Of a stretch of 64,000 nt of DNA, positions 13,811-60,811 are shown one piece after another. A program made the position numbers and the translations under genes. The notes under the pieces are model-generated. The model made no database searches. It saw only the letters and a list, made by a program, of their open reading frames with translations, and was not told the DNA's origin. The stretch comes from Sphagnum magellanicum (Eukaryota; Streptophyta; Sphagnopsida; Sphagnales; Sphagnaceae). The stretch's first letter is position 1, and every line of letters begins with the position of its first letter. The DNA lies in NCBI GenBank assembly GCA_021904315.1, contig CM038907.1, forward strand, positions 1,116,001-1,180,000. The letters are read 5' to 3'.

Positions 13811-13923
13811 TCTCAATTAAAGAACCCCTGTATATTGACTGCTGAAAATGACAATTGGTGGTATGAAAAAATGATGGATGAGAACACTACAGTCTTCCAA
13901 TGTAGTTAACCTTTTGTTTCTGC

Positions 13924-16575: not shown

Positions 16576-16675
16576 ACCTCCAGACGAAACAACACCGCTC
16601 TTCCTCCCTCCCTCGCTCCCCAATACCACTCCTTCCTCTTTACACCGCAAGGCATGTTCTCCCCGTGTCGTAAGA

Positions 16676-16780
16676 TTAGGCTTAGGGTTTTTAGGATAGG
16701 GTTAGGGTTCCAGAAGCTTGTTCTTCACGTTTGTAAGATTAGGGTTAGGACTCGAAGGACAAGGGCTCGGGCTAGGGTTC
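16676..16780 (-). promoter_or_regulatory. Telo-box-like repeats upstream of CCMA copy A
   Basis: On the plus strand the sequence contains several ttaggg or tttaggg units (16676-16707 and 16737-16780). Read on the gene strand these are AACCCTAA-type telo boxes, 100-205 bases upstream of the predicted ATG. Telo boxes occur in the 5' regions of many plant housekeeping genes; activity here is inferred only. Confidence 0.45.
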
Positions 16781-17296
16781 AGGAAGAAGTCCAGTCTCCA
16801 CTGCAAGCATTTTCTCCCTTGAGCTTTTTGCAACTTTATACCAATTTTATGATAGGGCCAATGTCTTCTGGAATCTCCATGTGTTACTTGCGCACCATCT
16901 AGGCACCTGAATTTCCCAAGCTTGAAGTTGTAGTGAGTCCCCAGTAATAAGGTTAGGTTTTGAATTTCAAAATCTTATTGTCAGGAGAACATCATAATGC
17001 AATGGAAGAACACCTCACACATTCCCTTACAAATTTTATAAACTGGACATACCAACATGTATATGGTGTGAGAAATCCCTATACAGCAAGTAAAAAATGT
17101 CATTTTAGAAAGGTCTTGACTAGTTTCATAGATATGATCTTGAAAAGATGGCAAATCAAAATAGTTGAATCACCTATTCAAGTTGGTTTTGCTGCCACAT
17201 AATCAAGCTTTCATACTTGATATCATTCTCCACACATTCTTTCTCCACATTTGTAAGCTTTGGGTTACAATGCCCATGTCTGTCTAGTATTGAAGC

Positions 17297-17362
17297 GTGC
17301 ATAGGATTACAACTCTCTAATGACAATGAAATAGTAATCCAGAAAGTTGAAATCCTCTACAC
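17297..17362. repeat. Decayed foldback in duplicate A
   Basis: Two arms (17297-17319 and 17340-17362) are imperfect reverse complements. The matching arms in duplicate B (61448-61470 and 61491-61513) are identical over 23 bp. Confidence 0.5.
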
Positions 17363-17374
17363 ACAAAACCACCT

Positions 17375-17593
17375 AGACCTCCATCACTAGCTGATTTGTG
17401 GTAGAGGATGCCCTTTTAGCATTACGTCCTCCACTTCATTACGAGTGTTTTGATGGTCTTGGTTTTCCTTTCATGTGTTTACATTTGCTTCGACATGCCT
17501 TGTACTTTTTGTGGAGGGATTTCCATCCTTGTTTATATATATATGTGTGTGTGTGTGTGTGTCTCTCTCTCTCTATATATAGAGTTTCCACCT
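17375..17593. mobile_element. 219-bp insertion specific to duplicate A
   Basis: Present in A and absent from B, where the site reads aaaccaactgg. In A the six bases ccacct stand at both edges (17369-17374 and 17588-17593), as expected of a target duplication. It carries a (TA)(TG)(TC)(TA) microsatellite at 17533-17582 near its right end. A short non-autonomous insertion is the simplest reading; a deletion in B between the short repeats is the alternative. Confidence 0.5.
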
Positions 17594-18264
17594 GGATTTG
17601 TTTGCTCCCCCCAACAACTTATTATGTATAGACTTTGAAAAGTAAACATGATTTGAAAAGTGTGATCTAATTTCTACAAAACATTACACTTGCGAGCTAT
17701 GTGTGGGCAAAAACATTTTTATTAAACTCAAGTGCTATATAGTGATATCACACAAGATCATCTTACAAAGATCCAATGAACTCGCATGGAATCTTTGCCT
17801 TTTTGCATATATGTTTGAATCAATAAGCATGAGGAAGTTCATGGCAATTCTAACATTCTCATACCATTTGCCCAAGTTCAAATTATACCACGTAATGAAA
17901 CTTGAAAGTTCACTTTGTTTTAGTTTGCGTTCTAACAATTGAAGCTTTTTCAGACTGGCCTTTTGTACAAACACCATTATCAACTTTGGCACCCCAATGT
18001 TTTTTGGCTTGTTTTGGCTTCAAACACCATGGTTTCTTACTGGCTTTGGACATTTCTAAAGAGCTTCATCCTATGTGGTATTTTGCTCGTATGATTCAAT
18101 TATAGTCTCTTCACTTAATCAAATACATAAACAAATTGTGTGAATTAATGAACATTCTATGAATTCAAAAGGGTCTTTATAGATCGATAGTTTTCCATTA
18201 GGTGGATGAACCTTAAAAATAAATTGAATTAGATCCTAGAAGTCTTATAAATTATTGTAACAAA

Positions 18265-21932: not shown

Positions 21933-23516
21933 TATGAAAAAATAGGTATGTTGCAACTAGGTTTGTAATTGGGTTTTAATTGCAATCTTGAATTGCAATG
22001 ACCACTTGCAATTCAACATATTTCTATAGCTTGAATGTTATCAAATGAGTTCCAAGAGTTGTAATGGCAGAATTCACCATATATGAAATTGTATACATAT
22101 GCAACTCATGCAACTATGTTGCAACTATTGTGCCATTATGTTGTAACTATTGTGTCAATATGTTGTAACTATCATGTAACTACATAGGTAATGATGTATG
22201 GACGTGGTAATGACTTGTTAACAAATCATCAATGGACACATAGCAATCAAAAATTTATTCCAATATTATTCTAATTTATTCCAATATTTTTATTCATATA
22301 ATTTATATCATTCAAGGTAGGGCCGATAAGACATTGACATGTGGCGTTTAGGTCAATAAATAAATAGTTTAAAATAAGTAATTAAACATTACTATTGACA
22401 TTTCCTAGGCTAAGTAGCTAAGTAGTTAGGCCTAAATAACTAGATGGGTAGGCTTAAGTTAGGTAGGTAAGTCATTTGGGATAATCTTATTTCACTTTGG
22501 GTTTAACATTTAAAGCAAAAAAAATAATTATTGGCTTGTTCCAAATGTTACTTATTTTAATACTTTTCGTGCATTTAGTTATAAACTTCTCAAAAAGTAG
22601 GACAAACAATATGGGATAAGAAAAATAGTCACATCCTAGTTGCAACTCATTTACAACTCACCTCTATTTATTACAAGACAAGTAAATAAATGAACATTTA
22701 AACTTTCAAGGAGTTTTAGATCTTGATACATTGTCCTTTGCCTTTCAATGCAAAAGGTTTTCTTAGACCCTGACTTGATGCAACCACATCCAATTAGATT
22801 GCTCAAAAAAGACACAAAATGAAGAAACTATGGTTATCAAAAGTAGCTTGCAAGTTCAATGGTTGGTCACCAACTTAATTCACACTTTAACATTTAGCAC
22901 ATTCATCTTCTTTATGGTTTTTTTAATTATGTTCATTTACCTATAAATCTCAAATAATTAATATAGATCTTAACTTGGTGCACCTATAAAACTTTAAATC
23001 GCTAAAAAAAACAAGAAACAAGGAAAATATGAAGTTTAGAAATAAAAGGTTTTTTTATTAAAAAAAAACAATGTGCTTCTTTGCATTTGAATTTGCAACA
23101 TATAATTTAAAGTTTACCCACGATGCTTTACATCACACAAAATAAACGGGAAACAATAAAAATTCAAAAAAATTCAATCATTGGCCAACAATCAATGATG
23201 GGTAGTTCTATTTTAACATAATTTATCTACTAGGTATATTAATTATTATAGTTAATAATAATAAGTAATAAGTAATAATATCAACTACAATTTGGAATCT
23301 AAATACTAATGTATAATAATAATAATAATAATAATCATCATCATCAATATTATTAAATATTATTATTGTAGCTACTAATTGGGGAATTACTTAAAGATCC
23401 AATATAGTAATTTAAGTAGTTACAAAAAAGTTGTTAACGAATGCTTCATTTATTCAAGTTTTATTGTAGTTGTCATATGTGACAATTGTGCAACTTGCTA
23501 ACAAAATTAAATATGA
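21933..23516. mobile_element. 1.8-kb TIR element, copy 2, left part (split by the Helitron)
   Basis: Begins tatgaaaaaa at 21933 and matches the reverse complement of the right part of 7758-9553: similar ttgcaac-rich blocks, a shared aattcaccatatat block, the gtaggt cluster and an atatgggat block come in the same order. The sequence stops at the Helitron junction and resumes at 38597. It contains a (TAA)n-(ATC)n microsatellite at 23312-23346. Confidence 0.6.
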
Positions 23517-23545
23517 CTAGTGGGTAACCCGTGGCTATGCCACTG
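23517..23545 (-). repeat. Helitron 3' terminus: hairpin and CTAG
   Basis: Read on the minus strand, GTGGCATAGCCAC forms a 5-bp stem with a 3-base loop, followed by GGGTTACCCA (itself partly palindromic) and the terminal CTAG; the next host base is T. This is the standard Helitron 3' end. Confidence 0.85.
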
Positions 23546-24968
23546 GTGTTGGGTGGGTATCCACTTTTGAACATACCAGCTGGTACCCATATCGAATCTC
23601 TTAAAAACATTTCATACCAGCCTGGTCCTGGTATTAGGATCCAATGTTGATTTTTTTGTCTCATATGTGATATACCCGGTATGAATATCCATCTAGCCAT
23701 GGTATTAAATTGTCATTATCTCAAGTACCTACCATGCAGCTATTGATAGAAGGCTGGTATTTGCCTGAGGTTGTGCCGGTTTGGTCCAGTGTCTTTTTTT
23801 ATTTTTTATTTTTATTTTTATTATTATTTTAATTTATAATTTTAAATTGCTGATGTGGCTACCATTTGACTACTCGTGATGCTAATTGGTCCACCTTTGG
23901 AAAATATTGGAGGTTTTGCAGGTGACTTTTTTTTTTAGAATGAGGATTTGATGATTTATTTTTTTGGGAGGTGTAGAGTTTAAAGTGGTGATTAATTTTT
24001 CTTCACCAAGGCCACATTTTGGCTAGAAGTTTTTTTCATTTGGACACTTTCTAGCTACCAGCAGGTCAATTGTGAAATAGCTTGTAAGTTATAAGTGATA
24101 ACTTATGACCAGTAAGAAAAAATGAGTAAACAACCAAAGCAAACTTGAAAATAACATATAAGTTCAATTCATATTCCATCATTCCAAAAAAAAACAAAAA
24201 TCACTTGTGAGGAGATTGAACCCTCCTTTAAACACCCATTGTAACACAAGGATAACTTAATTTAACACAAAAGACCACAAGGCAATTGTGACATTAGTTC
24301 AAACTTCAAAATTGTATCAGATATCAAAGACCACCAAAACTTGCCAAGCCCATAAAAACAAAAGGAGTACAATTCTAGAATCTCATTAGTAATTATTAAG
24401 CCAATGATAAGCACTTACAAAAGTTGTCCAATGCCAAAACCCAAGCCACAAAAAATAATTTATAATTAGATAATTGCTTAGCTTAAGCCTTGCAAAACTT
24501 GAAGATAATCTAGGCTCCTATTCCATAATGCTTTGCATGCCATAAATAAAATGTATCTACATATGGAAAAAGTTATGCAAGTAATAAAACTTATGGGATT
24601 ACATTTTAACCACTAAGCCTTGGTTGCTAATGAGTTCATTATAAAGCTTTTAGACTTACATAATGCCAAAGAATTAAAGCATTGCTCATTCTCAATGCTC
24701 CTAAGAACTTGTACAATGGCAATTTTTGCCAACTTGAAATATTCTAAGAAAAAGTAAAAAAGAACTTTGGATGTTAAAAAGTGTGCTGGAGGCAAAAGGT
24801 AGAGTTTGTATCAATAGGTTTGGCCATGGCATCATGTGCATTTCATTTCATGACCAACTTGAAATGTTGAATTTCAACAAAAGTTGTTAAAAACACTTCA
24901 AGCACCCACACATCAAAGTTGATCACTTTCTTGGGGTGGCAATATGCTTTTTTAATGACACTCAAATG
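23546..24968 (-). other. Helitron 3' untranslated and subterminal region
   Basis: Lies between the helicase stop codon and the terminal hairpin. AT-rich and without a recognisable gene; a run of diverged catt/tgg motifs near 23.55-23.8 kb is unexplained. Confidence 0.5.
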
Positions 24969-26654
24969 TTACAACACCTCTGTGTAAACAACATTGCGAG
25001 TGTACACACCAGCAGGTGCATCTTCATGAGCATCCTTCCACCCATCTGTAACCAGTAGTTTCACCCCTTCGGGGCACCCAATGCGCGACATGGCCACATA
25101 CAACTGGCCATGTGTAAATACAGGCTTGGGCAGAAAAATGCCGACCATCTTCAATGTCTGCCCTTGCGCCTTATTGATGGTCATGGCAAATGCAGGGCGC
25201 ACAGGGAACTGGCGACGGCGCAGAGTGAAAGGCATTCGTTCCGTGTTTGAAGGTGTGATGCTTAGCCATGAAATGAACACTCGTTGGCCCTTTGTAGGAC
25301 CTGTTGCCACCTCTGCTTCAATGACATGCTGCATGAGTTGAATGACAATGAGCCTGGTACCATTAGCCAGGCCGCTGGTCATGTTGCGTAATAATATGAT
25401 GGGACAACCCTCTTGCAAGTGCAGTTCATGGGGTGGTACGCCCGAAAAACTGAGTGTGTTCAAGAACTCAGTGGGGTAAATGCCATGTTGCTCCCCATGC
25501 ACCACAAAATCCGCGCTGTAATACACGCGGTGCTGTGCGGGCGAGCCATCGTGCTTTGTGAATGCATATTTGTCATTGATGAATTTATTGAGTGCATCCA
25601 CATCTTCGTTCAAAGGTGTAAGAATTGCACGCTCAATGATGTATGCAGATCTTGCAGCATACTCAACAATAGATGACAAAGTGCCATACATTTCTTCAAT
25701 CAAATCTGCCACAGTAGGGCCATTGCAGCACATGTCATGAGGAATAAGAATGGAGTCTTCACCAACAGAGGGATACACGCGCTCTGCGCCCTCCCCCACA
25801 CGTTGCAAGTAATCAGCAAATGCCTGCTGCCGTGTGGCATTTGCTTGTGCATGCGCCCCACCCTGAGCCAGCAACCTCTGCACGCGCATGTTGGTGTGCA
25901 ACTTGAATACATGCACATGTTGCCATATGTTGGAACGGTTCAAAGCTGCAGCGACGACATCTCCCTTGGTGCCGCGGGGCACAACAGGCAAAATTTGTCG
26001 AAAATCGCCGCTAAACACCACAACCAAGCCGCCAAAGGGCAGGAACTTGAATGCTGGGTTAATGACAGCCATGATGTCCTGCAAAGACCTGTTGACAGCC
26101 TCAAAAACATGCCTGTGCATCATGATAGCCTCATCCCACACAATGAGCGTAGCCGCTTGCAAAAGTGATGCCAGCTCAGAGTCCCTACTGATGTAGCATG
26201 TGGACGTGCTGTTGAGGCCTTGCACAGGGATTTTGAAATGTGAGTGTGCAGTGCGGCCTCCGTCCAGCAGTAATGCAGCAATGCCAGATGATGCCACAGC
26301 AATAGCGACCCGACCCTGTGCGCGCACGGTGCTCAGCAAGCAACTGTAGAGAAAGGTTTTGCTAGTGCCGCCAAGGCCATCGACAAAAAATGCACGACAG
26401 TCGACAGCGGCCATGACATTGTCATAGACAGCCCGTTGCTCAGGGTTAAGTTGCGGCACGTGCTCATCTCGCATGGCTGCTTGCGTTGCCACGTCATACC
26501 TGGCAATTTCGTCTACCACCACAGCACTCGCAGGTTGGGCCGCAGGCGTTGGCAAGTCAAATGCTGCTAAGCCCTGGCTGCTATTGAGGTGTGCCAACTG
26601 CAGCGCCAACTCCCGCATCACCATGTCTTGGATGGCAGCATCGAGTTTGCCGCG
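24969..26654 (-). CDS. Helitron RepHel exon 4: Pif1-type helicase
   Basis: A 562-codon exon (stop included) encoding the SF1B Pif1-like DNA helicase that unwinds the element during rolling-circle transposition. It opens with LNPEQRAVYDNV, then Walker A GLGGTSKT (about 26357-26380), GIAALLLDGGRTAHS, Walker B VWDEAIMMHR, VVFSGDFRQILPVV and the C-terminal QLYVAMSRIGCPEGVKLLV, finishing NVVYTEVL as complete plant Helitron proteins do. The usual GK[ST] of Walker A is SKT here (AGC for GGC), which should weaken ATP binding. Splicing from exon 3 (CGG at 28226) to CGC at 26654 keeps phase 0; the acceptor at 26665 is also possible but out of phase. GC-rich compared with the flanking introns. Confidence 0.9.
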   Translation of the reverse strand, partial: RGKLDAAIQDMVMRELALQLAHLNSSQGLAAFDLPTPAAQPASAVVVDEIARYDVATQAAMRDEHVPQLNPEQRAVYDNVMAAVDCRAFFVDGLGGTSKTFLYSCLLSTVRAQGRVAIAVASSGIAALLLDGGRTAHSHFKIPVQGLNSTSTCYISRDSELASLLQAATLIVWDEAIMMHRHVFEAVNRSLQDIMAVINPAFKFLPFGGLVVVFSGDFRQILPVVPRGTKGDVVAAALNRSNIWQHVHVFKLHTNMRVQRLLAQGGAHAQANATRQQAFADYLQRVGEGAERVYPSVGEDSILIPHDMCCNGPTVADLIEEMYGTLSSIVEYAARSAYIIERAILTPLNEDVDALNKFINDKYAFTKHDGSPAQHRVYYSADFVVHGEQHGIYPTEFLNTLSFSGVPPHELHLQEGCPIILLRNMTSGLANGTRLIVIQLMQHVIEAEVATGPTKGQRVFISWLSITPSNTERMPFTLRRRQFPVRPAFAMTINKAQGQTLKMVGIFLPKPVFTHGQLYVAMSRIGCPEGVKLLVTDGWKDAHEDAPAGVYTRNVVYTEVL

Positions 26655-28225
26655 CTGGCTTGCCCTGCACATTATAGGAGCACACACACAACATAGTGAA
26701 CTTTGAATCCAATTGGGAAAATCTACAAATCTAATTGGGAAGACTCGATGGAAATAATTATAAGGTTTTTGCAAACCTTTTCATCAATTGTAACATAATG
26801 ACATGCCTTAGAAAAAACATGGCCCAAAAAAGTGCCTTTGAAACTTTCATCCAAACTTAAAATTTCACAATGCATGATTCATTTCAAAGCAATTGTCATT
26901 GCATTCAATCCGTATTGTTCAAGTAATTTTGTCAATTTTTTGGCCCAAGCTTGACCAATAGTTTTTATTGCTTCAAATAACCCAATGGTCATTTGTTTAG
27001 GTTGTTAATCACAAGAACAAAACTATCATGTGCCCCCTTAAACATCCATAAATCAAAACTTGTTGTATATATACAATCTACCAATTTTGGTAAAACATAT
27101 ACTTGTTTTGTTTTCTTCACCAATTAACATTTGATGAGAAAATTATTTTCTCAAATGGAAGACAACTCAAGTACACAAATGTAAAATCAAATGTTTAAAC
27201 CAAACATTTTCCACAAATTGCAATGGTGATTGATTTTTCATAATTAAAAGGCCAAGGTTTTGCAAGAAATCTTTTAATTGTTCATCATACTTTTTAAAAG
27301 GATCTTGGACACACAAAAAACTTAGACATTACATTCTTTGACACATTAGGCCTTTTCTTTATTGGTTGTCTTTCAAAAGTTCATTTTAATAGACCATTTA
27401 CTTCTTCAATTTTTTTGACAATTACAACATGATTCCCATTCGCATGTTTTTTTAAAGTTGTTATTCCATATGTTTATAATATGTTATAAGTTCATTTTTT
27501 TCTTTTGTGCTTGGATTAAAAACATGTAAAGGATTGTTGTAGCAAACAAACATCTCATGATTTGAAAGTTTGTAGGATCAACTTATTTGTCATCATTTAA
27601 ATACAAAAGAACCCAACAAATTACATTGCTATTTCTTGAACATGCAATTTTTGAAGGTTTGTTTCCATTTGTTTCATTTGTTTACGTTATTTCTTTTGTT
27701 GTATTTTTTTATGTAAAAATTTTCATTCAAAATTTCATCTTGCATATTCCATTGATTGAAACAAATTTCATTTTCACCATCAATTAAAATTACATTTTCA
27801 TTTTGATCACTTGATTCCATTTCTTAATAGATATTTGTTAGGTTGGAGGATAAATTTTTAAATAAGTATAAAATTTTCCAAAATTATGGGTTTCAATTTG
27901 AATTGCCTAATTTATGCAAAGGCTACCAAACAAAAAAGGAAAAAACAATTATAAGAAAATAAAGTAGTTGCAAGCATTAATAAGATTTTGGAGGTAAAAG
28001 TTGTGCCAAAAAAAAATTAAATTAATGTGGGAATTTTTTTGTGCAAATGGGATTTTAATCCTACACACGATGCATGACACACAATATGTCAAATGATTAA
28101 CATGGATAATTATTTTTCCTAAAACATGTCTAATTAAAATAAAAACAAAAATTGAAAACAAATGTTTGAAAAAAAATAGGAAAATTAAAAACTAAAAAAA
28201 ATTTTAAAATGTAAAAAACACCAAC
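26655..28225 (-). other. RepHel intron 3
   Basis: 1.57 kb of very AT-rich sequence between exons 3 and 4. No coding content. Its composition contrasts sharply with the flanking exons, which marks the exon edges well; the donor (CGG|GTTGG) is the weakest of the predicted junctions. Confidence 0.6.
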
Positions 28226-29162
28226 CCGGCATGCTTGATAAAGGAAGTCTTCTGCCATGTCGTCCTTGAAGCGCTCCCACAAAGCCAATGGGTTTGCAAC
28301 AACATTGAACACCAGCAAGGCAACAAATAATGCCCTGAGGCATGAGGCACTGGCCATGCTTACAGCCTCCTCCATGCACTGGGCCCACTCAGCATCGTCC
28401 TGTAGTAAACCACGCTGCTGACATGTTTCTTTGAAAGATGCGTGCTGCGTGGGATGTTGCAAGTGCTTGTTGGTGCACGCTAGGTCTTCAAAAGACGTAG
28501 CCCCAGGCACGTGATGTAGCAAAAGACGCAAGAAGTACCTCTCCCCCTCGGAGGGTTGCACAAAGTACATGTGGCCGACAGGTAGCAGACCTAGCGTCCG
28601 TGTGTGGAGTGCCCATTGCTTTTCCTTCTTTTTCCATGTCGCAATGCGAGGAAAGTCATGGTAAAGCGTGTTGAGAGCCAAGCACAATGGTGTAGATGGA
28701 TTAACATGCTCCCGTGCTGTTTTGTTAAATGCAAACCATGCAGTCAGAGTTGTGTGAGGGTTCCGGTTAAGTATGGTCGCAGCATCAGTGCCCTCTTGAA
28801 ACAGGATGGTCTGACGCCCTTTCAAGTGCACAGCAAGTCGAATGACATTGGGGTGCTCCTTGTGTAGATCAAAGCCATACAGACGGTGGCTGGCCTCAGA
28901 AGTCGACACATACCGGCCGTCTTGGTAGATCTTGATCTCATCCCGCATGAGTGGCTAAGCGGGCGCAGTGCCGTCAGGTGCAATAACGTCCACTGGGCCA
29001 ACGTCCACCTGTGCACGGTCATGGCCCTTGTAGACGTACTTGTAGAGGTATTTGACAGCCGCGACGGAGGTGCAGACCTCCACGTTGATGTGGCAATTGA
29101 AGAGCAGGCACAGGTACGGGTTGTAAGGCACCACCCAACAATTGTCAAAGGCAAACCCACCC
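28226..29162 (-). CDS. Helitron RepHel exon 3: Rep tyrosine motif and linker domain
   Basis: Exon of 937 bases. It starts GGFAFDNCWVVPYNPYL, continues CHINVEVCTS and the Rep tyrosine motif VKYLYKYVYKG (29034-29064), whose tyrosines nick and rejoin DNA, then the conserved linker (IYQDGRYVSTSEASHRL, HPNVIRLAVHLKGRQ, YFLRLLLHHVPGATSFEDL, LRALFVALLVFN). One in-frame TAG at 28957-28955 interrupts it between TAPA and PLMRDE; the frame is the same on both sides, so this looks like a single point change. The acceptor CTGCTGCAG before 29162 joins the exon 2 donor in phase. Confidence 0.85.
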
Positions 29163-30290
29163 CTGCAGCAACAGCAGCCAAACATCAGTTGTTACGTGAG
29201 CGGTGTCACAGGTTAATAAGCGCAAGCATGGCAGCATAGTCGTGCATAAATTAGTAATTTAATCTTGTATATGTTCATACATGTAATATTTTATTTTTAT
29301 GTAAACCGAATTTATTTTATGATATATAATTGATGATAATTAAATTGTGAAATTTTAATATTCATTCTTTTTTTTTTCTGTGATAGCTTAATATTTATTT
29401 AAAATTATGATCAAAATTCATTAAACATTAAATTACATGTAATTTTTATTTGTCAAAATGAATGGTTATGTACGATGTAATTTTTTTTAATGCATTCAAG
29501 CAATAGTGTTCAATATATATATAAATTTAAAATTTAAATATAAGTTGATAATAATGCATATGTTCAATACATGTAATTTCTATTTTTGTGTAAATCAAAT
29601 TTAATTTTCAATATTTCAAAGGATGATAAATAATTAATATTTTGGTGGAACTCTAATTTTTATGCACTTTTATACATATGATAACTAAGTTATATTTGTT
29701 CAAATTTTATCAAAATTCATGAAGTTTAAATTACACGTAAATTTTATTTGTGAAAATGAATTTTCTGTAGGATGAAGTTTTTTCATATATATATATAAGT
29801 TAAGAATATTGTGTATTGAAATATTAGTTAGGCTAATATGTTTGTTAATGGGGTTTTTTATTATTTTGATATTGAAATTGATTTAAGAGGAAAAGAAAAC
29901 TGAATAGGTTCTGATGTTATTTTTCAACAAATTTTGTGGGGTAGTTTGTTGATGTCCCTTATCAAAATATTCCAATATATTACAATTATTTTATTATTTT
30001 AATTCATAAACAAAGGGCTTCCTCTTTTTCCTAATTGAAGGAAACAACGCAATTTGAAAAGATACAATTTTTCTTTAATTTCTTTTTTGTTCAAATTTTG
30101 ACAGACTTTGATTCGTTTTATAGACCCAAAAAGAGACAATATTTTTCTTATGTCTTCTGTGTTTGTAATCAAAATATGCCTGATTGATATGCTCTTTTCT
30201 GAGGTTGTCTATAGCTCAATCTTTTTTGTTCAAATTTTGACAAACTTTGTTGTCAGTCCAAATGCATGGTCCTATTGCCAGCACATTTAC
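29163..30290 (-). other. RepHel intron 2, carrying a copy of the element's tandem-repeat unit
   Basis: 1.13 kb, AT-rich. The donor GAGCG|GTAAATG and acceptor CTGCAG|GGGTGG keep the Rep frame. At 30055-30245 it holds a unit of the same repeat that forms the array at 34.5-35.5 kb. Confidence 0.7.
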
Positions 30291-31467
30291 CGCTCAAATG
30301 TGTGGCCATCATCCCGGCGGTGGTAAATTGGGTAGGAGTCAGTGGTGTTGGTGGTGTGCTCTGTGAAGGCCTTAGGGTAGCCTTTTGAACGAACGCCGTC
30401 AGCCATGCAAGGGCAATGTGGGTTGATGGTGCCACAGGGGCCATGTAGCATGCAACTTGTAACGACCTCAAAAAAAGTGGGGTGTGCATCCTTATCAGGC
30501 AACTCTGCAGACACCATGCGGTCGTACTCATCGGGCCCTCGTGGTTTGTGATCGGAATGCAAAATGAGCAGAATGTGTGCATGGGGCAGGCCTCTCTTCT
30601 GCCACTCAATGACATGAATGTTAGCCACCACTTTGCCAAAAATGCCCTTCTTCAAAAGCTCGTCCAGCAAGTGTTGTAATTTGCCAAAAAAAACACGTGT
30701 GACCAAATCAGGGCGGTCATTGGCAATCTCGCCGGGCTTCAGCACGCTGATAATCTCTTCCCACTTGGGGTTGCAGGTCATGGTGATGAACAAATCAGGC
30801 TTGCCATATTGGCGGACAATGGCCATGGAATCTTGGTATAATTGAGCCATGTGTCGGTGGCCACCAATGAATGAAGATGGCAATACAATGAGCCTGCCTA
30901 GGTTATCGATGTTGGCGTCGTTATTGGCAATTACATCAGCTAGGCCACCATAGATTGCAGCACGCAAAGGGCCTTGGTTGTTGCGTATGTAAAACAGCCG
31001 TTGTGATTCCACTTTGCTATATTGGTCAACAACCCACTCTTGATACAAACATTTGCCATACACAAAGAGGGCGTGCGATGCCGGGTTCCTATCTTGCATG
31101 TGATAGCAAGCCCACTCCCGTGCAGTGATTTTTTTGCTTCGTGCAGGTTGTGCTGGCCCTGCATCTGTTACAACATGCTCAGCATCACCTTCCTCCTCGT
31201 TGCTATCATTTTGTGTAGGTTGTGTTAGCTCTACATCTGCTGCAACATGCCCAGCGTCACCTTCCTCCTCCCCGCCAGCAGCCCGCCGACGGTCAGGGGC
31301 AACAGCAGCATGGGGCATGCCTGGCTGCCAGCCGAGCTCACCATGAGGATGGAACAACACAAAGTGGAGCGGATCGTAAGCAGGGTGCAGGTCACTGATC
31401 CTCCATAGCCCGCCGCCACGTGCACGCACTCTGATGTCCCTGCCTGTAACCGACTCGTCACTGTCGC
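30291..31467 (-). CDS. Helitron RepHel exon 2: Helitron-like N domain with HUH motif
   Basis: Exon of 1177 bases with an open frame throughout. It encodes the Rep endonuclease part: RISDLHPAYDPLHFVLFHP, an acidic low-complexity stretch with EEEGDA repeats, REWACYHMQDR, PSSFIGGHRHMAQLYQDSM, FITMTCNPKW and the metal-binding HUH motif in GLPHAHILL (HAH at 30575-30583), ending in a Cys/His-containing CGTINPHCPC region. It matches the Pfam Helitron_like_N family. The HUH endonuclease cuts the donor and target strands. The acceptor GCACAG|GCGACAG and the exon 1 donor together rebuild a codon in phase. No stop or frame break seen. Confidence 0.9.
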
Positions 31468-33118
31468 CTGTGCAAGAGCAACAACATTTATGTCAATGAA
31501 TGAGGAACATTGCATCAAATGTACGATGGCAACAAACAAACAGCACAGTAGTACACATTGTTGAAGAACCTCACCTGGCAACAGCCCAGCCACTTCGGGG
31601 ATGGGTAGATTACTCTTATGTGGCCCTTTACAACACCTTAAAACAAAAGAGAAAACAAAACAACAACAAATATATAAAACAGTGAGGCCATTGAAATCCT
31701 CTTTACCTTCTTCTACTGTATTTCAAACAAATGCACCAATCATCCAAGCAAATTAGGGTGCATGTCAAAATAAACATGTAGTCCACTTCCAAGGTCTATA
31801 CCACTAAAAAAGAAAGAAAGGCCCAACAACCTTATAAGAGATTTATCACTTAGATCATTTTAGTATCTACATTACACATACACACATAAAGTGCTAACAC
31901 TCAACACATGGATATGGCTATAGGAGGTATTTAGATTAAAAGTTCACGAATGGTTGTCCTTTGTCCCATCTACTTCCTACTCCCACTACATGCTACAAAC
32001 ACCAACACCAAAACAACATACAAATTTGAACCTAAAAATATGTTATCGCAACATGCTAAGCTCAACAATAAAAATCCAACTCCTACATAGATTGAAGTGA
32101 CCTCCCTTACCTCCTATGAAAGTGGTGATTCACTTGCAAATCCTTTTGAAAATGCTTTCAACTCAACATAAATCCCATTTAATTGGCTAAACTCCAACCA
32201 ACAATTTCACCTCTCAAAAACATAATTAGATTATGGTCTAGAATATTGAAAATACCAATTTTATCATGTAAAAAAGGTCACTTCTACCTACTATTAATTT
32301 GAATTATTAGGCTACCATAGTTATTAATAAATAGTAAAAACCATCAAGTATTTTTATTTTCATCAAATATCTATCTTGTAATTGTGATTCAATAATTTGC
32401 TTTGAAAATTGTAATATGGTGATATGCCTTCTATCAGTAGGTTCTTAAGGTCTATCATTTTTTAATTTTTTTATTACTCAATATCTAGCAAATAGGTGAT
32501 TTATTAATCTTTTACTTATGCTTAATAGCATGTCCAATGTGTACTATGATTCACTTAAGTTTTTAAATATAATGAAAACCTTTTTACTTGCAACCAAGAA
32601 CTATGATGAAAAGAGTGCAATACTTCTCTTTCAATGAGTCGTGAAGATTAAATGTAATGGTTATCATTACTATTTTTTTTCAGCATAATATCAAGCCAAG
32701 AAATGAATAAATTATCATTTCTATTGCCCAACCTTGATTTCAAAAAATAAAATAATTATTTAGCACCTAAATGTCAAACCCAAATAAGGCACCATGTTAA
32801 TCATTTAACATTAGACCCACAATGGCATATACAATTCTGGGTAATTTTTCATACCCATACATCAAAATGGCCAGATTCTCAATTGAGACTCCATCCATTC
32901 CATAAATTTTCAACCTTAGGTTTGTTTGGGTTGTCCAGCATATTGTTACAGAGGTTTCTTTGACACAATATAAAACATATTCAAATGATCAGCACTTGCC
33001 CCTTTAAATGATTCTCTACATTTGATTCAAAAAATTGTCAAAACTATTCATAAGAGGGAAAAAAAAAGTCTTTTAGACTTTAAAGCCTTGGACACTCAAA
33101 GCTACTGAAGAACCTCAC
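31468..33118 (-). other. RepHel intron 1, with a duplicated 5' splice site
   Basis: 1.65 kb, AT-rich. A 39-bp block containing the end of exon 1 and its donor occurs twice, at 33106-33144 (the true exon end) and at 31562-31600 (inside the intron), with one base different. Between them lie 1505 bp with no recognised gene. Confidence 0.65.
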
Positions 33119-34472
33119 TTGGCAACAGCCCAGCCACTTCGGGGGCAGTAGGAGCATTGTAGCGTCGCTTGTCAATGTTGCCGTTGACCCTGATGACAAC
33201 TTCCCATTGAGGCAAGTCATGTGCGGGCATGTCCATGACTTGTTTGAAACGTTGCACAAATGTGTTGTGATCATGCAACATCTGTTGTAGCCCCGCCAAA
33301 GTTGGCTGATGCAAAGCAGCGCTCGTAGCACCCAAAGCTGCAAGGCGTGCTGTGACTTGTGCATCCATAGAATCAATGATGTACAATTGGGCGAATTGTG
33401 GCACATCATGCTCGGTGGGCTGTAAAGGCCCCAACAAGTGATGCACAGCCCCTTTGATGGCAATCATGTTGATCCCTTGTTCCGGGGAATGGATGTGCAG
33501 GCCCGTTGAGGCCATCTGCAATGCAGAGTTGTATGCACGAATGTTCTGCTTGAAATCCTTAGTGGCAGGTGGCAAAGGCTGGTGCTCATTGGGCACACTG
33601 GTGAGCAAATCTCTGAGTGGTTGAGGTGCAGGGGCGGGGAAAGCATTGCTCAACCCAGACATCTTGCCACCGTCGCAACACAAAGTGGTGCGCTTTTTCT
33701 CGTGCTCAAAGCGGAATGCATTGCAGTGTGTGCACCTATGTGACATGGCACCCAATGAGTGTACCACCAACCCCTCCACCTCATCCGCAGTGTGCAAGGC
33801 TTGCTTCCCAAATCGCCGGGCGCGAGCCCTTCGCCTGGCAGAAGTATCCCGTTCCCTGACTGCGTGCTGCTGTTCAGGGAACTGAGCTGCCCTGGCAACA
33901 CGCCTGGCAGAGGCATCCTGTTCCCTGGCTGCTTGCTGCTGTTCAGCAAACTGAGCTGCCCTGGCAGCACGCATGGCAGAGGCATCCTGCTCCCTGGCTG
34001 CTTGCTGCTGTTCAGCGAACTGAGCTGCCCTAACAGCACGCATGGCAGAGGCATCCTGTTCCCTGGCTGCTTGCTGCTGTTCAGTGAACTGATTTGCCCT
34101 GGCAGCACGCCTGGCAGAGGCATCTTGTTCCGTGGCTGCTTGCTGCTGTTTAGCGAACTGAGCTGCCCTGGCAGCACGCCTGGCAGAGGCATCCTGTTCC
34201 CTGGCTGCTTGCTGCTGTTTAGCGAACTGAGTTGCCCTGGCAGCACGCATGGCAGAGGCATCCTGTTCCCTGGCTGCTTGCTGCTGTTCAACGAACTGAG
34301 CTGCCCTCGAAGCACGCCTGGCAGAGGCATTTCGTTCCCTGACTGCGTGTTGCTGTTTAGCGAACTGAGCTGCCCTAGCAGCACGCCTGGCAGAGGCATC
34401 CTGTTCCCTGGCTACTTGCTGCTGTTCAGCGGACTGAGCTGCCCTGGCAGCGCGCCTAGTGGTAGCATTCAT
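33119..34472 (-). CDS. Helitron RepHel exon 1: repeat-rich N-terminus and Cys-rich region
   Basis: Exon of 1354 bases from ATG at 34472. Nine tandem 23-residue units (RRAARAAQFAEQQQAAREQD-like, 33837-34457) form a highly charged, probably helical segment; Arg/Gln-rich repeats at this place are common in plant Helitron proteins. A Cys-rich motif follows (CTHCNAFRFEHEK...LCCDGGKM), then the conserved NIRAYNSALQMAS, FAQLYIIDS and PEVAGLLP segments. The donor CCAA|GTGAGG leaves one base that completes a codon with exon 2. Because the repeat is 69 bp, long spurious frames also exist on the other strand and in another frame. Confidence 0.85.
33837..34457 (-). repeat. 69-bp coding minisatellite, nine units
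   Basis: Nine consecutive 69-bp units in RepHel exon 1, each coding 23 residues, with scattered substitutions and no frame change. Unit number probably varies among copies of the element. Confidence 0.9.
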
Positions 34473-34528
34473 TTGCCTGGCTGCATCAATGCGAGGGGAG
34501 GAGGACCTAAAACTAAAAATTGTTTTTA
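34473..34528 (-). other. Helitron leader upstream of the RepHel ATG
   Basis: Short sequence between the repeat block and the ATG at 34472. An upstream in-frame extension without an ATG exists, so the start is the first ATG of the frame. Confidence 0.4.
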
Positions 34529-35520
34529 CACATCTGAATCAAGCCAAGAGTCTACCAATTCCACTCAATACAGATCTCTTTGTGTTGACAATGTGGCAAA
34601 TACCCTTTGTTTCTTGTATGTTTTTGTGATCAAAATATGTTTCATTGATCTTGATAAACCAAGATAGCATACCTGATTGATATGCTCTTTTCTGAGGTTG
34701 TCAATAGCTCAATCTTTATTTGTGTTGGGGATTCATTATGGAGACCACATCTGAATCAAACCAAGAGTCTACCAATTCCACTTAATACAGATATCTTTGT
34801 GTTGACAATGTGGCAAATACCCTTTGTTTCTTGTATGTTTTTGTGATCAAAATATATTTCATTGATCTTGATAAACCAAGATAGCAAACCTGATTGATAT
34901 GCTTTTTTCTGAGGTTGTCAATAGCTCAATCTTTATTTGTGTTGGGGATTCATTATGGAGACCTCAAAAGATACAATTTTTCTTTAATTTCTTTTTTGTT
35001 CAAATTTTGACAGACTTTGATTCATTTTGTAGACCCAAAAAGAGACAATATTTTTCTGATGTCTTCTATGTTTGTGATCAAAATATGTTTCATTGATCTT
35101 GATAAACCAAGATAGCATACCTGATTGATATGCTCTTTTCTGAGGTTGTCAATAGCTCAATCTTTATTTGTGCTGGGGATTCATTATGGAGACCACATCT
35201 GAATCAAGCCAAGAGTCTACCAATTCCACTCAATACAGATATCTTTGTGTTGACAATGTGGCAAATACCCTTTGTTTCTTGTATGTTTTTGTGATCAAAA
35301 TATGTTTCATTGATCTTGATAAACCAAGATAGCAAACTTGATTTATATGCTCTTTTCTAAGGTTGTCAATAGCTCAATCTTTATTTGTGCTGGGGATTCA
35401 TTATGGAGACCTCAAAAGATACAATTTTTCTTTAATTTCTTTTTTGTTCAAATTTTGACAGACTTTGATTCATTTTGTAGACCCAAAAATAGACAATATT
35501 TTTCTGATGTCTTCTGTGTT
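34529..35520. repeat. Compound tandem repeat block inside the Helitron
   Basis: Three modules recur: X (starting acatctgaatcaa; 34530, 34746, 35196), Y (gatcaaaatatgtttcattg ... attcattatggagacc; four copies) and Z (aaaagatacaatttttcttt; 34967 and 35414). The order is X-Y, X-Y-Z-Y, X-Y-Z. One Z plus partial Y also sits in RepHel intron 2 (30055-30245). Copies are nearly identical, so the amplification is recent. Confidence 0.85.
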
Positions 35521-38014
35521 TATATTTTGAGAGTTTACTGTCATAAATGTCCTTGAATCCAAATCAAGTGTGGTTACAATTAATTACAATGCGATCCTGT
35601 GAAACATTCAATCTCTTCGATCTCCCTTCTGATTTTGCATGTTACTCCCTGTTTTTGTGACAAATAAAGAATATGCCACAATTTTGATGTGGCTTCAGGT
35701 TTGGTATAATTTATTGGATTTTTTTTACTTCTTTTTGTTATCAACATTTTTAGACTTAGTATGCATGGAGGAAGGTTTAAATTCATAGGAGTTTTGTAAT
35801 ATGAAATTTTCCTGTCTAGAAGTGAATGTTGAGGTTCGTAAGAAAAAAATGACAATGTTTTAGGTCAATTCTTAACCTTTAAGTTTTTATGTAATTTGAA
35901 AACCTTGTTTGTATTTTCTATGCATGTTTTCAAAGTTTTTAAAAAAGTTTTGTTATGTTTTGTGCAAAATTATTTGACATTTGAAGCAAATCACATGACT
36001 TGGAATATGGATTCTAATGTTTAACTTGAAGTACACCCCTGATTATTCTGTTACATTTTCAATTGAAACCAAAGGTGAGTTTCTCCAACTGATTTTTTTG
36101 TGCCTATATTTTAATTGGTTTGGGTGCAAGTCAAGCATTGAGTTGCAATGGGCAACACCCTCATAGGGTTGGGATTCAAATCCCCTTCAAGGTGATTAAA
36201 GTTTAAAGAATTTTGATTTCATTAGTTTTTTAATGAAAGGTATAATTAACCTTATAACCAAATATATGCACTTCATAATAATCCTATAGCCAAAAATATT
36301 CCTTTGTCGATCCACATTTTGCCCAATACATCCCCTTAAAAACTTGCGTGTCACCAAATGCAATCCTTTAAAACCTGCATGTTGCCAAATGTAATCCCTT
36401 GTAAACCCACATGTTGCCATTTCTTTTGATCATGATTATTTTGGTTGTAGCCATTCTATAGACATTTGGAATTATTAATTTGACACCATAGGTACTTGTC
36501 AATTTTTTTAAGTCATTAGATTGATTCTACTACATGTAAAAAATTTAGCCATTTATGTTAATTGAAGTTTAAGTAAGTCTGCACCACTCTTGCAAAAGCT
36601 CATCAGCCATTATTGTTGTCTAACCACTGCTGCTCTCATGCAGGTTGAGGGCAGAAGTTTCATGGTTGCTACGTTGTAGAAGTCATAGGAGAATTGCACA
36701 CATCGTGGGAGGTGTTATCTGCACAATGTCTCTTCATCAATCTGTTCAATTCCTGCTATCCTTGTCACTTACTATACTGATAGTCTTTATGCCAATGTGC
36801 ACATGCAGGAATTGTGCGTAGAACTATGTGGTTTTGCTGATAGTGTATTTTGGGAATTAGGTGAAAGGAGGGCATGGGAGCCATTTCTACACTTTGTCCA
36901 GAGAGGAGCATTGATGAGGGTTCCTCAGCTGCATGAGCAGTGAAGGCACCCCCGCCTTTGAGAGCAGCAAATTTGGTGATCAGCACTGTTGATGGCATCA
37001 AACCCCTCCCTCAGATTTCCTCCCAAGAAAAAAACTATAACCAAACTTATGAGACAGATCTTGATGTTATGTCAGAGAAACATTTAGGAAGGAATGGTAA
37101 CCTGTGGGAACTTCAGGTTGTCAGAGATGCTTGTTTGTTATGATGATCCTCCTCAAATCATGGAAAAGCCTATGCCAAAATTTCCTTTGTATTGAAAAAT
37201 TGCAAGCACATTTTGGTACCTTGGTGCTTAGACACCCTGACAGGGTTGGTTGTTTCTTGCAATCTGGATAATGAGAAGGACTTGATAACAAAGCACATGT
37301 TTCAATGAAAGAGGAAGAGTTGAACTTCAGTTTCCAAAGTCAAGAACCCAAATGCATTATGTGTTGCATCACTACACAATGCACATTGGAAAATACTGGA
37401 TGAAAATCAGCTAACGGTTGTTCTCCATGGTACATAGTGCAGAACTAACCTACATTTTAGCAATCATCCAAAGCATTTTTATAACATTGACAGCTTTGCA
37501 CATCTAGCAAAAGAAAGCCTAAATCAACAGCTTTGCATACTCTCTGGAAAGAAGCCATTTTTCCATGTATAGAGTTTCTTACCATGTGTCCTGTGGATGC
37601 AACATGACTCATTGTTCCACCTTTAAGGGCAGTACATACTGTCAGATTACCGCAAAAGGTGGAATCTTCAATCCTTTTGCCTGTAGATTCAAGTGCTTCA
37701 GTCAGTCAAAACAACATGATGCAGGCTGGTAGAACTGTTTCAAACATACTATTTGGATCAAGAAATGGATGCCAATTAACCTTGGAAGAGTTAATCTGTG
37801 CTGGAAAGTATAGTGAGTGAGTCCCAAAGTGAAGAAAGTTTTCATATAAGAAGCACTAATGTGCATTTGATGGTGAAGTCTGCAGATCTAATAAAATCAA
37901 CAATTCAATTCTTGTTCCTATCATGAAAGTTGGAAGTCAATGCATGTTTTAAGGTCATACAGTGGTTGAGATCTGATGACGTCTTTTTGCAGCTGTGAAA
38001 CGTACGTATCGTAC
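35521..38014 (-). other. Helitron 5' cargo region, partly unidentified
   Basis: Contains exon-like pieces on the minus strand whose parent gene I do not recognise. One is an open segment at 37583-37681 ending in a clean donor (ACATG|GTAAGA) and coding ALKGGTMSHVASTGHM; another is at 36765-37001 with AALKGGGAFTAHAAEEPSSM. Both share an ALKGG core and could be captured exons of one host gene. A B-box-like ggattcaaatcc lies at 36172-36183. Confidence 0.4.
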
Positions 38015-38083
38015 CTTCGTCAAATCGTCGCTGATTATTAGCACAGAATCCAATGTTCCTACGCGCAGATCAGGCATTTGGAA
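38015..38083 (-). pseudogene. VHA-C (fragment): Captured exon of vacuolar H+-ATPase subunit C
   Basis: A 69-bp exon coding 23 residues that begin FQMPDLRVGTLDSVL and go on to ISDDLTK, the hallmark N-terminal block of V-ATPase subunit C (plants read FNIPNLRVGTLDSLL...DDL). It has an intact acceptor (ATATCACAACAG|TTC) and donor (ACGAAG|GTACGA). Subunit C links the V1 and V0 sectors of the proton pump. The rest of the gene is absent, so this is a transduplicated fragment inside the Helitron, in the same orientation as RepHel. It might be spliced into chimeric transcripts. Confidence 0.8.
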
Positions 38084-38248
38084 CTGTTGTGATATCCAGC
38101 CACGGGGAAGAAGACAAAAAGTCTCGTCAGTCCACAACTCATCACATCCGCGAAAGATTACGCAAGAAACAAAATCAAGCACCGAAATGAAATTATTGTT
38201 GCAATGAAGCTTCTTGCATGCTTCTTACTGACATCTGAAGAAACGCAC

Positions 38249-38346
38249 CTTGTAAATCGGGATATCGAAGGTGATGTTCGAGACGCTCTGGTAAAGAATT
38301 TTTCCCCCACCGCGACAATCATTCACAACTTCTCCATTATCACAAC
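38249..38346 (-). pseudogene. VHA-C (fragment): Captured preceding exon of V-ATPase subunit C
   Basis: An open segment ending KILYQSVSNITFDIPIYK before a clean donor (TACAAG|GTGCGT). In the V-ATPase C family the residues just before the FNIPNLRVGTLD block read LW..L......FDTPVYR, so this is the preceding exon, and the 165-bp gap to 38083 is its intron. Its upstream edge is uncertain: a stop in frame lies near 38347 and an AG acceptor beside it. Confidence 0.65.
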
Positions 38347-38519
38347 CCTAATTGCAGAAATCCTGCAAGATGATGCGAGGACACAATCCTGCAAGATGAT
38401 GACGATGAAGAAGAAGAAACAGATAGATCGACTTTAGCCATATCCATCTTTGTTTAGGTCTCACTTGAAGAAGATATGAATGCTGTCGGTGAATCAAAAA
38501 AAAAAAAAAAGGTCCGTGC

Positions 38520-38596
38520 TGGCTCGGGCAGTGCCCGGAAACTGCCCGGACAGACAGATAGACAGACAGACAGACCTGTAAATTTAATATATAAGA
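38520..38596 (-). repeat. Helitron 5' terminus with GTCT tract and subterminal hairpin
   Basis: The minus strand starts TCTTATATATTAAAT, preceded by host A. A (GTCT)n microsatellite (38549-38575) follows, then a hairpin with CGGGCAG/CTGCCCG arms around a 10-base loop. TC followed by an AT-rich start is characteristic of plant Helitron 5' ends. Confidence 0.8.
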
Positions 38597-38794
38597 TTGA
38601 CCAAAATTGTATATATTATGTGTAAATTCATTGTATAAGGGTCCATCTTGGGATTAATATACAACTATAATAGAATTTCATTTATTTTTTAATTCTTTGT
38701 ATTTCCATGGGATAGTTGCAACATAGTTACAAATTAGTTGTTTCAAAGTTCTCATTGCAAGGTTGTGAGGTTTCTATAGACACAATTATTCATA
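38597..38794. mobile_element. 1.8-kb TIR element, copy 2, right part
   Basis: Straight after the Helitron the sequence resumes with family similarity: gggatagttgcaa and a tagttgttt...ttgtgaggttt block match the reverse complement of the start of copy 1. It ends ttattcata at 38794, the expected terminal inverted repeat with one or two changes. Left plus right parts make about 1782 bp against 1796 bp for copy 1, which supports one element split by the Helitron. No clear target duplication was found. Confidence 0.6.
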
Positions 38795-44518: not shown

Positions 44519-46380
44519 TTAAATCATAGAACCTTCTACGCCATTTAATGGAATTCCAAAGACCAAATGAAAGGTAAAGTTAGGGCTCACATGATTTTGA
44601 GGTAGTTCTCCTTTTTGTTGAGGAACCTCCAAAATCACAGGTGCAGATTCATAATTTGTAAATACATCATTAAAAAAACAAGTGTTGTTACCCACAATTG
44701 CTTGGAGAAAGGCAGCAACAACACCACCTACAAAACATAATATATTAGAGACATTCATCAAGACATGAACGTCAATACCCATGAGAGCAACACAGTTGCT
44801 CTGTTAAATAAACCCCATCAGGCCTCAAAGAAGCCATGCTGGTTGAAGTGGCCTTATGCAAAAATATGAGGAAAAACGAATCGAATTCTTAACAACAAAA
44901 GCAAAAAGAATCACACCTGCAAAACGACTCATTGGTGCCCTAGAGCCAACTGTACCCATGCATTCAAGTTCTGTTAGTTCGCAAATGCCGTCATCCAAAA
45001 TGTCCATATGCCCATACTCTTTGGCCACCACAAAATGGTATACAGGTTCAATAAGGTCCTTGTAGAATTCATTATGGCTAACATTTTCTGGTGCACATTG
45101 TGGAAATAAAGGCCAATTCTCTGACCCGTGCCTTGTCCCAACAATGAGTGTGGGAACGGTCATATTCAAGGTGTTTTCTTTAAATGTTAATACGGGTGGG
45201 TCTGTTTGGATACCTTGTCGATCCCCATCAACAGGATCCAATCCTATAATGGTTGAGATTGGAATGGTACCGTTTAGTTGTATACCCATACTTAACACAA
45301 CCTTGCCTCCTCGACTGTGTCCTACTAAGGCCAGTTTTGATAAATCTGGTTTTGTTTTTGGGACCACTAACGACAATGCGCATTCAATATTAGCTTGTAT
45401 CCATTTTAATACATCAATTGCATCGCGAATTTCATGTGTTGCATTATAGGATAAAGTGAAACCCATCTGGTCACATACCAAACACTCTGAAATTTTAGTA
45501 TCACCAGGATGACTTATTTAGACGTCATATGTATAGCGCGCTGAAAGCAAACAAGTACTCTTTCAATTCCTTAAAAACGGAAGACTAGCAATAAGTGGAA
45601 AGATGAAGCTATAGACTCCTCGACGTACTTTTCTTGATAGAAACTCACAAACAATAGCTTGTTTACTTCAATATAGAACCGGGAAAAATAACTCTATAGT
45701 TATAAAACATGATGCTATGGAGATTGCTACCAGATACAAAATTGTCACTGCCTCTTACACATAAGTAGCGACCGTGGTAGATGCAGTCCCTTGACTTATG
45801 CTGAACTAGGTTGACCCTTGATCCTAAACTGACGTGACACGAAGTGGCATCAACGTCCAAACAGACAAGACTGATCTTTCATCTTTTGCTGCCTTTTCTT
45901 CTATTTCTACTACCTAGTCTCAGTTTTAACCCAGAATTCCAGGAGTTTGTTATGAAAAATTGGAAGGTTGTGCAAGTGTTCAAAGTGAAAACTTCTATGA
46001 AGGGAAAAGAAACATAATTTTTCTCAAAGGTTTTCTTGCACGCCAAAAGATGCGAAGGAATTTACCTGGGGAGCAATGACTATGAAACCATAGGAAGCCA
46101 CATGCGAGATGATCCGGCTATAACAAGCGTTCCTGACGTCAAAACCATGCTGAAACTGCACAACAGGGAACTTTCCCTCCGCCATCGGCACTGTTATCCA
46201 CAAAAATCTCACGGATTTTGTTATAGGCACTCCTAGAGGCAGATTCTCCACAGTGTAAGGCCCCTCGTCATACGGGCTTGTACACCCATCTGCGTCTCCT
46301 GATCTCAATGCACTCAGAGCCAATATAACCAAAAAAATAAAATTCATGACCAAGTTGCTCCTGAGGAAGATAGCACTCAT
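44519..46380 (-). CDS. CLH: Chlorophyllase (chlorophyll hydrolase)
   Basis: Removes phytol from chlorophyll. Three exons, 46380-46066, 45484-44917 and 44727-44519, give 363 residues with matching phases (CAG|GTAAAT; GCAG|GTGTGA to TTTGTAG|GTGG). Seen in order: a hydrophobic N-terminus (about residues 12-26), a YTVENLPLG segment, FPVVQFQHGF, VASYGFIVIAPQ, the serine motif GHSRGG (45307-45324), GLDPVDG with the likely acid residue, CAPENVSHNEFY, and YGHMDILDD with the catalytic His (45002-45016), then a C-terminal GGVVAAFLQA. All match the chlorophyllase family and the triad is complete. The ATG at 46380 has a good context (gccATGA). The exon 2 acceptor (CAGAG|TGT) is inferred from phase. The N-terminus resembles a secretory signal more than a chloroplast transit peptide. 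Looks functional. Confidence 0.88.
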
Positions 46381-57887: not shown

Positions 57888-57999
57888 CCTCAATTAAGAA
57901 CCCATGTATATTGACTGCTGAAAATGTCCATTGGTGGTACGAAAAAATGATGGATAAGAACACTACAGCCTTCCAATGTAGTCAACATTTTGTTTTTGC

Positions 58000-60425: not shown

Positions 60426-60472
<47 letters not shown>

Positions 60473-60701
60473 GGGGAAAAAATACATTGCCAGTGATGCG
60501 AGGGGGGAGACGGGAAATTCTTACCACACGCAGGAAGGTGGACTTGCCAGAAGCATTAGGGCCTGTGATTATCAATCCTGATCCTTCATGCAGTATCATG
60601 TTCACATCCCTGACGATCACTTGCTCTTTCCGCATGCACGCTAGCCCACTGGCGATTAGCCTTGGCACCGGAGATCCTCCCCTTCCCCTTACAATCCCCA
60701 T
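58000..60701 (-). CDS. CCMA/ABCI1: Cytochrome c maturation ABC transporter ATP-binding protein CcmA (copy B)
   Basis: Paralogue of the gene at 13924-16575. Seven exons: 60701-60525, 60075-59997, 59638-59565, 59054-58944, 58713-58627, 58403-58285, 58042-58000, again 229 residues. Exon lengths are identical to copy A and all splice sites, including the GC donor of intron 4, are kept. Walker A GPNASGKST, LSMGQ, Walker B LLDEPSV and the H-loop VATHVP are intact. I count about ten residue differences from copy A, among them an Arg to Cys in the segment before LSMGQ and DAMD to DALA near the H-loop; the residue before LSMGQ is Met-Leu here, nearer the family pattern. Both copies could be expressed. 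Confidence 0.88.
60429..60467. repeat. (GA)n microsatellite in CCMA copy B intron 1
   Basis: About 19 GA units, expanded after the duplication: copy A has only agagagag at the matching place. On the gene strand it is a (TC)n tract just inside intron 1. Confidence 0.9.
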
Positions 60702-60811
60702 ATTTCCAGACAAAACAACACCGCTCTTCCTCCCTCCCTCGCTCCCCAATACCACTCATTCCTCTTACACGCGCAATGCATGTTCTCCCCATGTTTGCGG
60801 AGTCGTAAGAA

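Follow-up and report, generated by a model that had tools for sequence, protein, structure and literature searches.

The 64,000-nucleotide stretch of the Sphagnum magellanicum genome analysed here, referred to as the window (C1:1116001-1180000), carries a 15-kb Helitron on its minus strand. We interpret it as a decayed, once probably autonomous element that grew stepwise, most likely through repair of breaks with filler DNA, and later decayed by C-to-T changes, a reading to which we assign a probability of about 0.8. All searches covered one genome, an assembly of 438,994,042 bases in 31 contigs; DNA and protein searches score best candidates only, so that copy counts are lower bounds. Four large copies were compared: the window element (A, 15,080 bp), B at C1:25146802-25162260 (15,459 bp), C at C4:4510097-4525212 (15,116 bp) and D at C14:3716727-3727901 (11,175 bp).

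The window element is a Helitron, and its edges at 23517 and 38596 are exactly right. Helitrons are recognised by a 5' TC, a CTAG-type 3' end and a hairpin about 10 nt upstream of that end. These terminal features are present, and the element lies between an A and a T, with its target site not duplicated. All four large copies start with TCTTATATATTAA directly after an A (38596/38597 in the window) and end in ...GTGGCATAGCCACGGGTTACCCACTAG with T as the next base; the 3' end in the window reads GTGGCATAGCCAC-GGGTTACC-CACTAG, then T (23517/23516). Copy A matches B and C from end to end, D shares the 5' end, the gene and the 3' terminus, and the flanks are unrelated in all of them. The base preceding the 5' end is A in 13 of 13 related 5' ends aligning from base 1, a count that leaves out rows whose match starts after query base 1 (among them L034, L047 and L013). 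T follows all 24 3' ends read, those of A-D and 20 others, of which one (L088) ends CTAA. The 5'-terminus pattern, which includes the preceding A, gave 519 genome matches versus 36 in the control, and the 27-bp 3' end was found 145 times at up to 3 mismatches (41 exact; 100 of the 145 listed individually) and never with the reversed control. Folding of the terminal hairpin gave z = -2.6.

Empty landing sites confirmed both edges. A query made of the joined flanks returned 42 rows, two of them A's own flanks, and 38 of the remaining 40 cross the junction at 70-78% identity. At all five paralogous sites that were fetched and aligned, the sequence continues across the junction, and nothing is duplicated or lost there. 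The 5' TC, the 3' hairpin with CTAG and the A/T target named in the initial annotation mark the edges of the insertion. At the junction these five sites read G/T where A reads A/T. The landing site of A lies within a dispersed repeat (23360-23516 and 38597-38779). An alternative 5' end, TCAATC, was rejected, as TCAA occurs in all four large copies and is absent from the other nine 5' ends, and the empty sites natively carry TTGACC. A search with the DNA past the 3' end of D matched only an unrelated dispersed repeat.

The element carries a RepHel gene of four exons (Table 1). It shows the combination of an HUH Rep nuclease with two tyrosines and a PIF1-type helicase; the tyrosine pair in YLYKY was read by eye, and the joining of both domains depends on the splice model. 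Against solved structures, Helraiser was the sole match of exon 2 at E up to 0.001 and the best match of exon 4. Some plant Helitrons carry an RPA-like gene, which is not required, and none of six open reading frames (ORFs) scanned from the element gave an RPA-like match. Compared with the nine 69-bp repeats in exon 1 of A, B and C have two fewer and D has one fewer. Exons 1 to 3 and introns 1 and 2 were correctly placed in the initial annotation, and only the border of exon 4 had to be moved from 26654 to 26664. Intron 3 ends AG/GGCGAGCC in B, C and D, and the consensus AG/GGYGAGCC of these copies and a fifth one on C15 (L099) corresponds to window position 26664. In B, C, D and L099 the AAA run at 26646-26648 is shorter by one base; A is therefore frameshifted there, and the border at 26654 keeps the frame closed because A gained this base.

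Helitrons of this kind are not rare in this genome. In addition to the 145 matches to the 3' end, the search for copies sharing both ends on the same strand found at least ten: A-D, plus six relatives that are between 5,925 and 7,874 bp long and lie on C2, C5, C6, C15, C16 and C20. These were paired by strand and distance, with an exact 5' end (that of C was found by other searches) and at most one mismatch in the 3' end; the lengths of the six short relatives follow from their end positions, as their interiors are mostly unread. The earlier expectation that such complete elements are uncommon does not hold for this genome. Exon 4 matched 78 stretches among the best candidates scored, several of which are pieces of one copy. 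Of seven listed papers that concern both Helitrons and Sphagnum, none appears from its title and the opening of its abstract to treat this element.

The six relatives of 5.9-7.9 kb, D with 11.2 kb and A, B and C with 15.1-15.5 kb form a growth series, which as a whole is best explained by an ancestor that, with high probability, grew stepwise from about 7-8 kb to 15 kb. Seven inserts of about 7.7 kb in total, one in each intron, three in the 5' region and one before the 3' terminus, roughly cover the difference from the 7-8-kb relatives, and no insert lies inside the exons of A-D. What had been taken for plain introns are short introns inflated by inserts: introns 1 and 2 measure 107 nt and 127 nt in D, which is without the inserts present in A-C, and intron 3, filled in A-D, has about 130 nt in L099 (its donor site inferred from the first bases of the fetched fragment). 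The intron-1 insert is flanked by 39-bp direct repeats (33106-33144 and 31562-31600) consisting of Helitron sequence that includes the 5' splice site. The intron-2 insert starts with about 0.19 kb resembling the element's own 5' array, followed by about 0.8 kb of a dispersed repeat. In the 5' region, segments 1 and 3 are absent from three relatives (C6:16.60M, C11:15.63M and C15:7.37M), which have about 100 bp of other sequence in place of segment 1, and the left junction of segment 2 shows a 4-bp microhomology, GACA, with the C3 locus.

D thus shows the form preceding capture at introns 1 and 2 and at segment 2, L099 shows it at intron 3, the three relatives at segments 1 and 3, and 32 of 38 copies (see below) at the 3' end. 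For four of the seven inserts, the edges of the best match elsewhere in the genome (90-98%; loci on C2, C18, C3 and C9) were read, and no Helitron sequence was found there. By eye, the ends of the C18 locus look gene-like, with a reading frame followed by a GT splice site. Peptides from the captured segments had no Pfam match above cut-off. The direction of change is firm for the 3' insert and good for the inserts that D does not have; it is less secure for segments 1 and 3.

Several further observations concern the intron inserts. C1:19165544-19166561 matches nearly the whole intron-2 insert at 93%; a piece of the 5' array precedes it and an exact 3' end follows, so that it probably lies within another Helitron copy. 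The intron-3 repeat is present in high copy number, with 673 first-look candidates for a query mostly made of it, and runs about 0.44 kb longer in D than in A-C. Its classification as a solo long terminal repeat was discarded, since D and other copies run beyond the end assumed for it, and the 18.5 kb surrounding a further locus on C2 (C2:4042000-4060500) yielded no second copy. This locus was itself rejected as a Helitron copy, having the intron-3 repeat alone in common.

Before the 3' terminus the replaced sequence can be followed base by base. Among 38 RepHel copies the spacer between gene and hairpin measures 26-53 nt in 32 (including D), 839-877 nt in three, and 1,414-1,428 nt in A, B and C; the 38 copies stand for 40 of the 78 exon-4 rows, as two of them each occupy two rows, and comprise those for which a 3' end is listed no more than 5 kb away; the other 38 rows have none. 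Base-by-base reading of 20 short-spacer 3' ends and D agrees; these 20 were chosen for their short distance to RepHel, and the frequency of the short form rests on all listed pairs. The short-spacer 3' end reads GTAACATGATTG...GGA-GTGGCATAGCC, the corresponding region of A-C reads GTAACATTTGAG...CCCAACACCA-GTGGCATAGCC, and the sequence at the C9 locus is CCCAACATTTGAA. In this region A-C share with the short-spacer form no more than the final 28 bp. About two dozen Helitron bases were swapped for 1.42 kb, with AACAT common to both sequences at one junction. At most of 16 other loci carrying the 3'-insert repeat (L013-L028), it ends at or near the same point and is followed by unrelated DNA without a Helitron end. 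The three spacers of 0.84-0.88 kb (C12:10517240-10519791, C12:16476109-16478668 and C3:11277933-11280421) possibly represent further 3' acquisitions.

None of the four large copies is intact. The damage in A consists of a stop in exon 3 (TAG at 28955-28957, where C and D have CAG and B has CAA), the frameshift at 26646-26648 and a Walker A substitution (AGC at 26361-26363; GGC in B, C and D), each private among the copies compared. The stop and the Walker A change had been recognised from the sequence of A, and both are real; the frameshift shows that more than these two changes separate A from activity. Premature stops were counted in exon 1 of B (five) and C (five) and in exons 1 (four) and 2 (one) of D; the frames of B and C past exon 1 were not used, being artefacts of the splice search. 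Near-complete, stop-free matches to exon 4 were found at C19:8657166, C15:3989803 and C2:14925204, of which exon 4 only was read. Of the proposed functional sister, the sister copies exist, B, C and D are broken, and these three matches are candidates on exon 4 alone.

A, B and C differ from each other by 2.8-2.9% overall, 0.7-1.3% in the intron-1 insert and 4.0-4.5% in the exons. The overall divergence is consistent with three copies made at about one time, and the recent insertion suggested in the initial annotation receives moderate support from the overall and insert values. Changes of C to T or G to A make up 97 of the 132 changes private to A, 119 of the 152 private to B and 121 of the 163 private to C, counted without the columns of the 5' and exon-1 arrays and those with fewer than two comparable copies; the A-D alignment is one automatic run in which arrays are possibly misaligned. 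In A, these changes affect 27 of 550 CG sites (4.9%), 35 of 961 CHG sites (3.6%) and 35 of 4462 CHH sites (0.8%). Such decay can explain why the exons look older than the intron-1 insert. From the preference for CG and CHG sites we infer that the copies were silenced by methylation.

Taken together, these data suggest the following course of events. As known for the family, Rep would nick at the 5' TC, the PIF1 helicase would unwind the DNA, and the 3' hairpin with CTAG would terminate copying; the rolling-circle product would then enter an A/T site without duplication, which agrees with the footprints observed here. Breaks within the element would have been mended by copying filler DNA of unrelated loci, and the inserts in the introns, the 5' region and the stretch ahead of the 3' end would have arisen in this way. 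The terminal 28 bp were kept and no coding exon received an insert, so that the 15-kb form could spread to at least three places, after which each copy would have decayed mainly by C-to-T change, chiefly at CG and CHG sites. AACAT, GACA, the 39-bp duplication and the piece of the element's own 5' array fit best as marks of break repair with copied filler. Several points weigh against this interpretation. Dispersed repeats make up the inserts of introns 2 and 3 as well as segment 3, and probably also the 3' segment; these could have transposed by themselves without any Helitron-specific process. The best match of the 3' segment reaches just 90-94%, which implies that its true source may be lost. 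Moreover, microhomologies of 1-5 bp were read by eye and are partly expected by chance, and the C18 junctions have only 1-2 bp in common. A-C may also have been mobilised in trans by relatives.

The last point leads to the alternative that A-C were never self-mobile and travelled as passengers of autonomous relatives after the ancestral gene had failed. In favour of this, all four large copies are broken today, and shorter RepHel relatives share the termini. Against it, the exons are free of inserts, and the similar extent of private decay in A, B and C points to damage that mostly arose after insertion. We regard passengers throughout as rather doubtful. At somewhat less than even odds, the 15-kb ancestor stayed self-mobile while doubling in size. 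The three short introns and the stretch from stop codon to hairpin may then have served as cargo bays in which repair filler was tolerated, with the last 28 bp alone being enough as a 3' end in vivo.

It is unlikely that every insert arose when an ordinary transposon landed in the Helitron, with no capture by repair. The many genome relatives of the sequences in introns 2 and 3, of segment 3 and of the 3' segment speak for this origin, and for some inserts it is possible. Yet the C2, C18 and C3 segments each have a single close match besides the Helitron copies, the 3', C18 and C3 events replaced Helitron DNA rather than adding to it, and part of the intron-2 insert resembles the 5' array of the element itself. 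Capture through filler-DNA repair remains the best fit. Read-through at the 3' end, in which the element lost its own 3' end and copying ran into the flank until it stopped at another Helitron 3' end 1.4 kb on, is very unlikely despite the read-through capture demonstrated for Helraiser (PMC4778049) and the plentiful near-identical 3' ends in this genome, because just 28 bp are common and joined straight to the repeat end where a downstream Helitron should bring more subterminal DNA, and because the internal inserts would be left unexplained.

Table 1. Features of the Helitron in the window (window coordinates).
Feature	Position	Strand	Matches and other evidence
Whole Helitron, 15,080 bp	23517..38596	-	edges common to B, C and D; paralogous sites without the element
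5' terminus TCTTATATATTAAATTTACA, preceded by A	38577..38596	-	related 5' ends; pattern search versus control
Captured segment 1, about 1.1 kb	36895..37994	-	97% to C18:12076206-12077308; in A-D
Captured segment 2, about 260 bp	36638..36898	-	98% to C3:17346183-17346443; in A, B and C, not in D
Segment 3, about 0.93 kb	35651..36576	-	dispersed at about 68-94%; in A-D
5' tandem array, 217/448-bp units	34529..35521	-	
RepHel exon 1, from first ATG	33119..34472	-	nine 69-bp (23-aa) repeats at 33832-34457
Intron 1 with 1.50-kb insert (about 31601-33105)	31468..33118	-	insert 97.9% to C2:15939462-15940970 (1,509 bp)
RepHel exon 2, Helitron Rep domain, HUH motif LPHAHILL	30291..31467	-	Pfam PF14214, E=2.5e-59; Helraiser 7lcc, E=4.3e-87
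Intron 2 with 1.0-kb composite insert (about 29247-30249)	29163..30290	-	about 0.19 kb + about 0.8 kb
RepHel exon 3, YLYKYVYKG, private TAG at 28955-28957	28226..29162	-	
Intron 3 with about 1.5 kb of unclassified dispersed repeat (26722-28218)	26665..28225	-	
RepHel exon 4, PIF1 helicase, extra base in AAA run 26646-26648, Walker A serine 26361-26363	24969..26664	-	PF05970, E=1.5e-70; 7lcc, E=2.5e-90
3' insert, 1.42 kb, stop codon to 3' terminus	23545..24968	-	nearest match C9:11497749-11498883, 90-94%; microhomology AACAT (5 bp)
3' terminus, 28 bp: A + hairpin GTGGC-ATA-GCCAC + GGGTTACC + CACTAG, then T	23517..23544	-	

Elsewhere in the window, direct copies about 44 kb apart lie on either side of the Helitron (13806-18263 and 57883-62194; 91.6% identity over 3.65 kb and 88.8% over 0.68 kb), the second of which contains a minus-strand ORF (60384-60755) with a match to ABC_tran below the curated cut-off. 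A chlorophyllase-family ORF is located at 44828-45517 on the minus strand (PF07224, E 2.4e-50) and a fragment of a retrotransposon polymerase region at 7003-7572 on the plus strand (PF25597, E 6e-27).

The moss element resembles Helraiser/Helibat1 of bats (PDB 7lcc), with alignments that cover 286 chain residues for the Rep domain and 466 for PIF1, and shares with it the 5'-TC, the 3' hairpin, CTAG-3' and the A and T flanks as reported for that element (PMC4778049). Unlike Helraiser, its gene has three introns and a 69-bp repeat array in exon 1, and acquired DNA makes up about half of its length. A nested series from core to larger elements, with source loci found and end junctions of 2-13 bp, has been described for Sfru_Hel1A of Spodoptera frugiperda, where it supported a model of stepwise break repair with filler DNA (PMC6544945). 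There, short elements gained 35-108 bp, whereas the RepHel-bearing copies of the moss gained 0.26-1.5 kb per step, with introns and the 3' end among the places affected. In rice, Mothra and its sister family are likewise plant Helitrons with tandem-repeat blocks and a captured fragment (PMC4683698); the mother element of Mothra is described there as encoding an RPA-like protein and no RepHel, in contrast to the moss element with its RepHel and no RPA-like product among the six ORFs scanned.

How Helitrons capture host DNA is still argued, and here one genome offers the states before and after several acquisitions in RepHel-bearing elements. Furthermore, A-C constitute a natural test of the 3' end, since the whole stretch from the gene to the last 28 bp was exchanged and the element still spread to three sites. 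If the introns are spliced, this family would show a transposon carrying cargo while keeping its enzyme.

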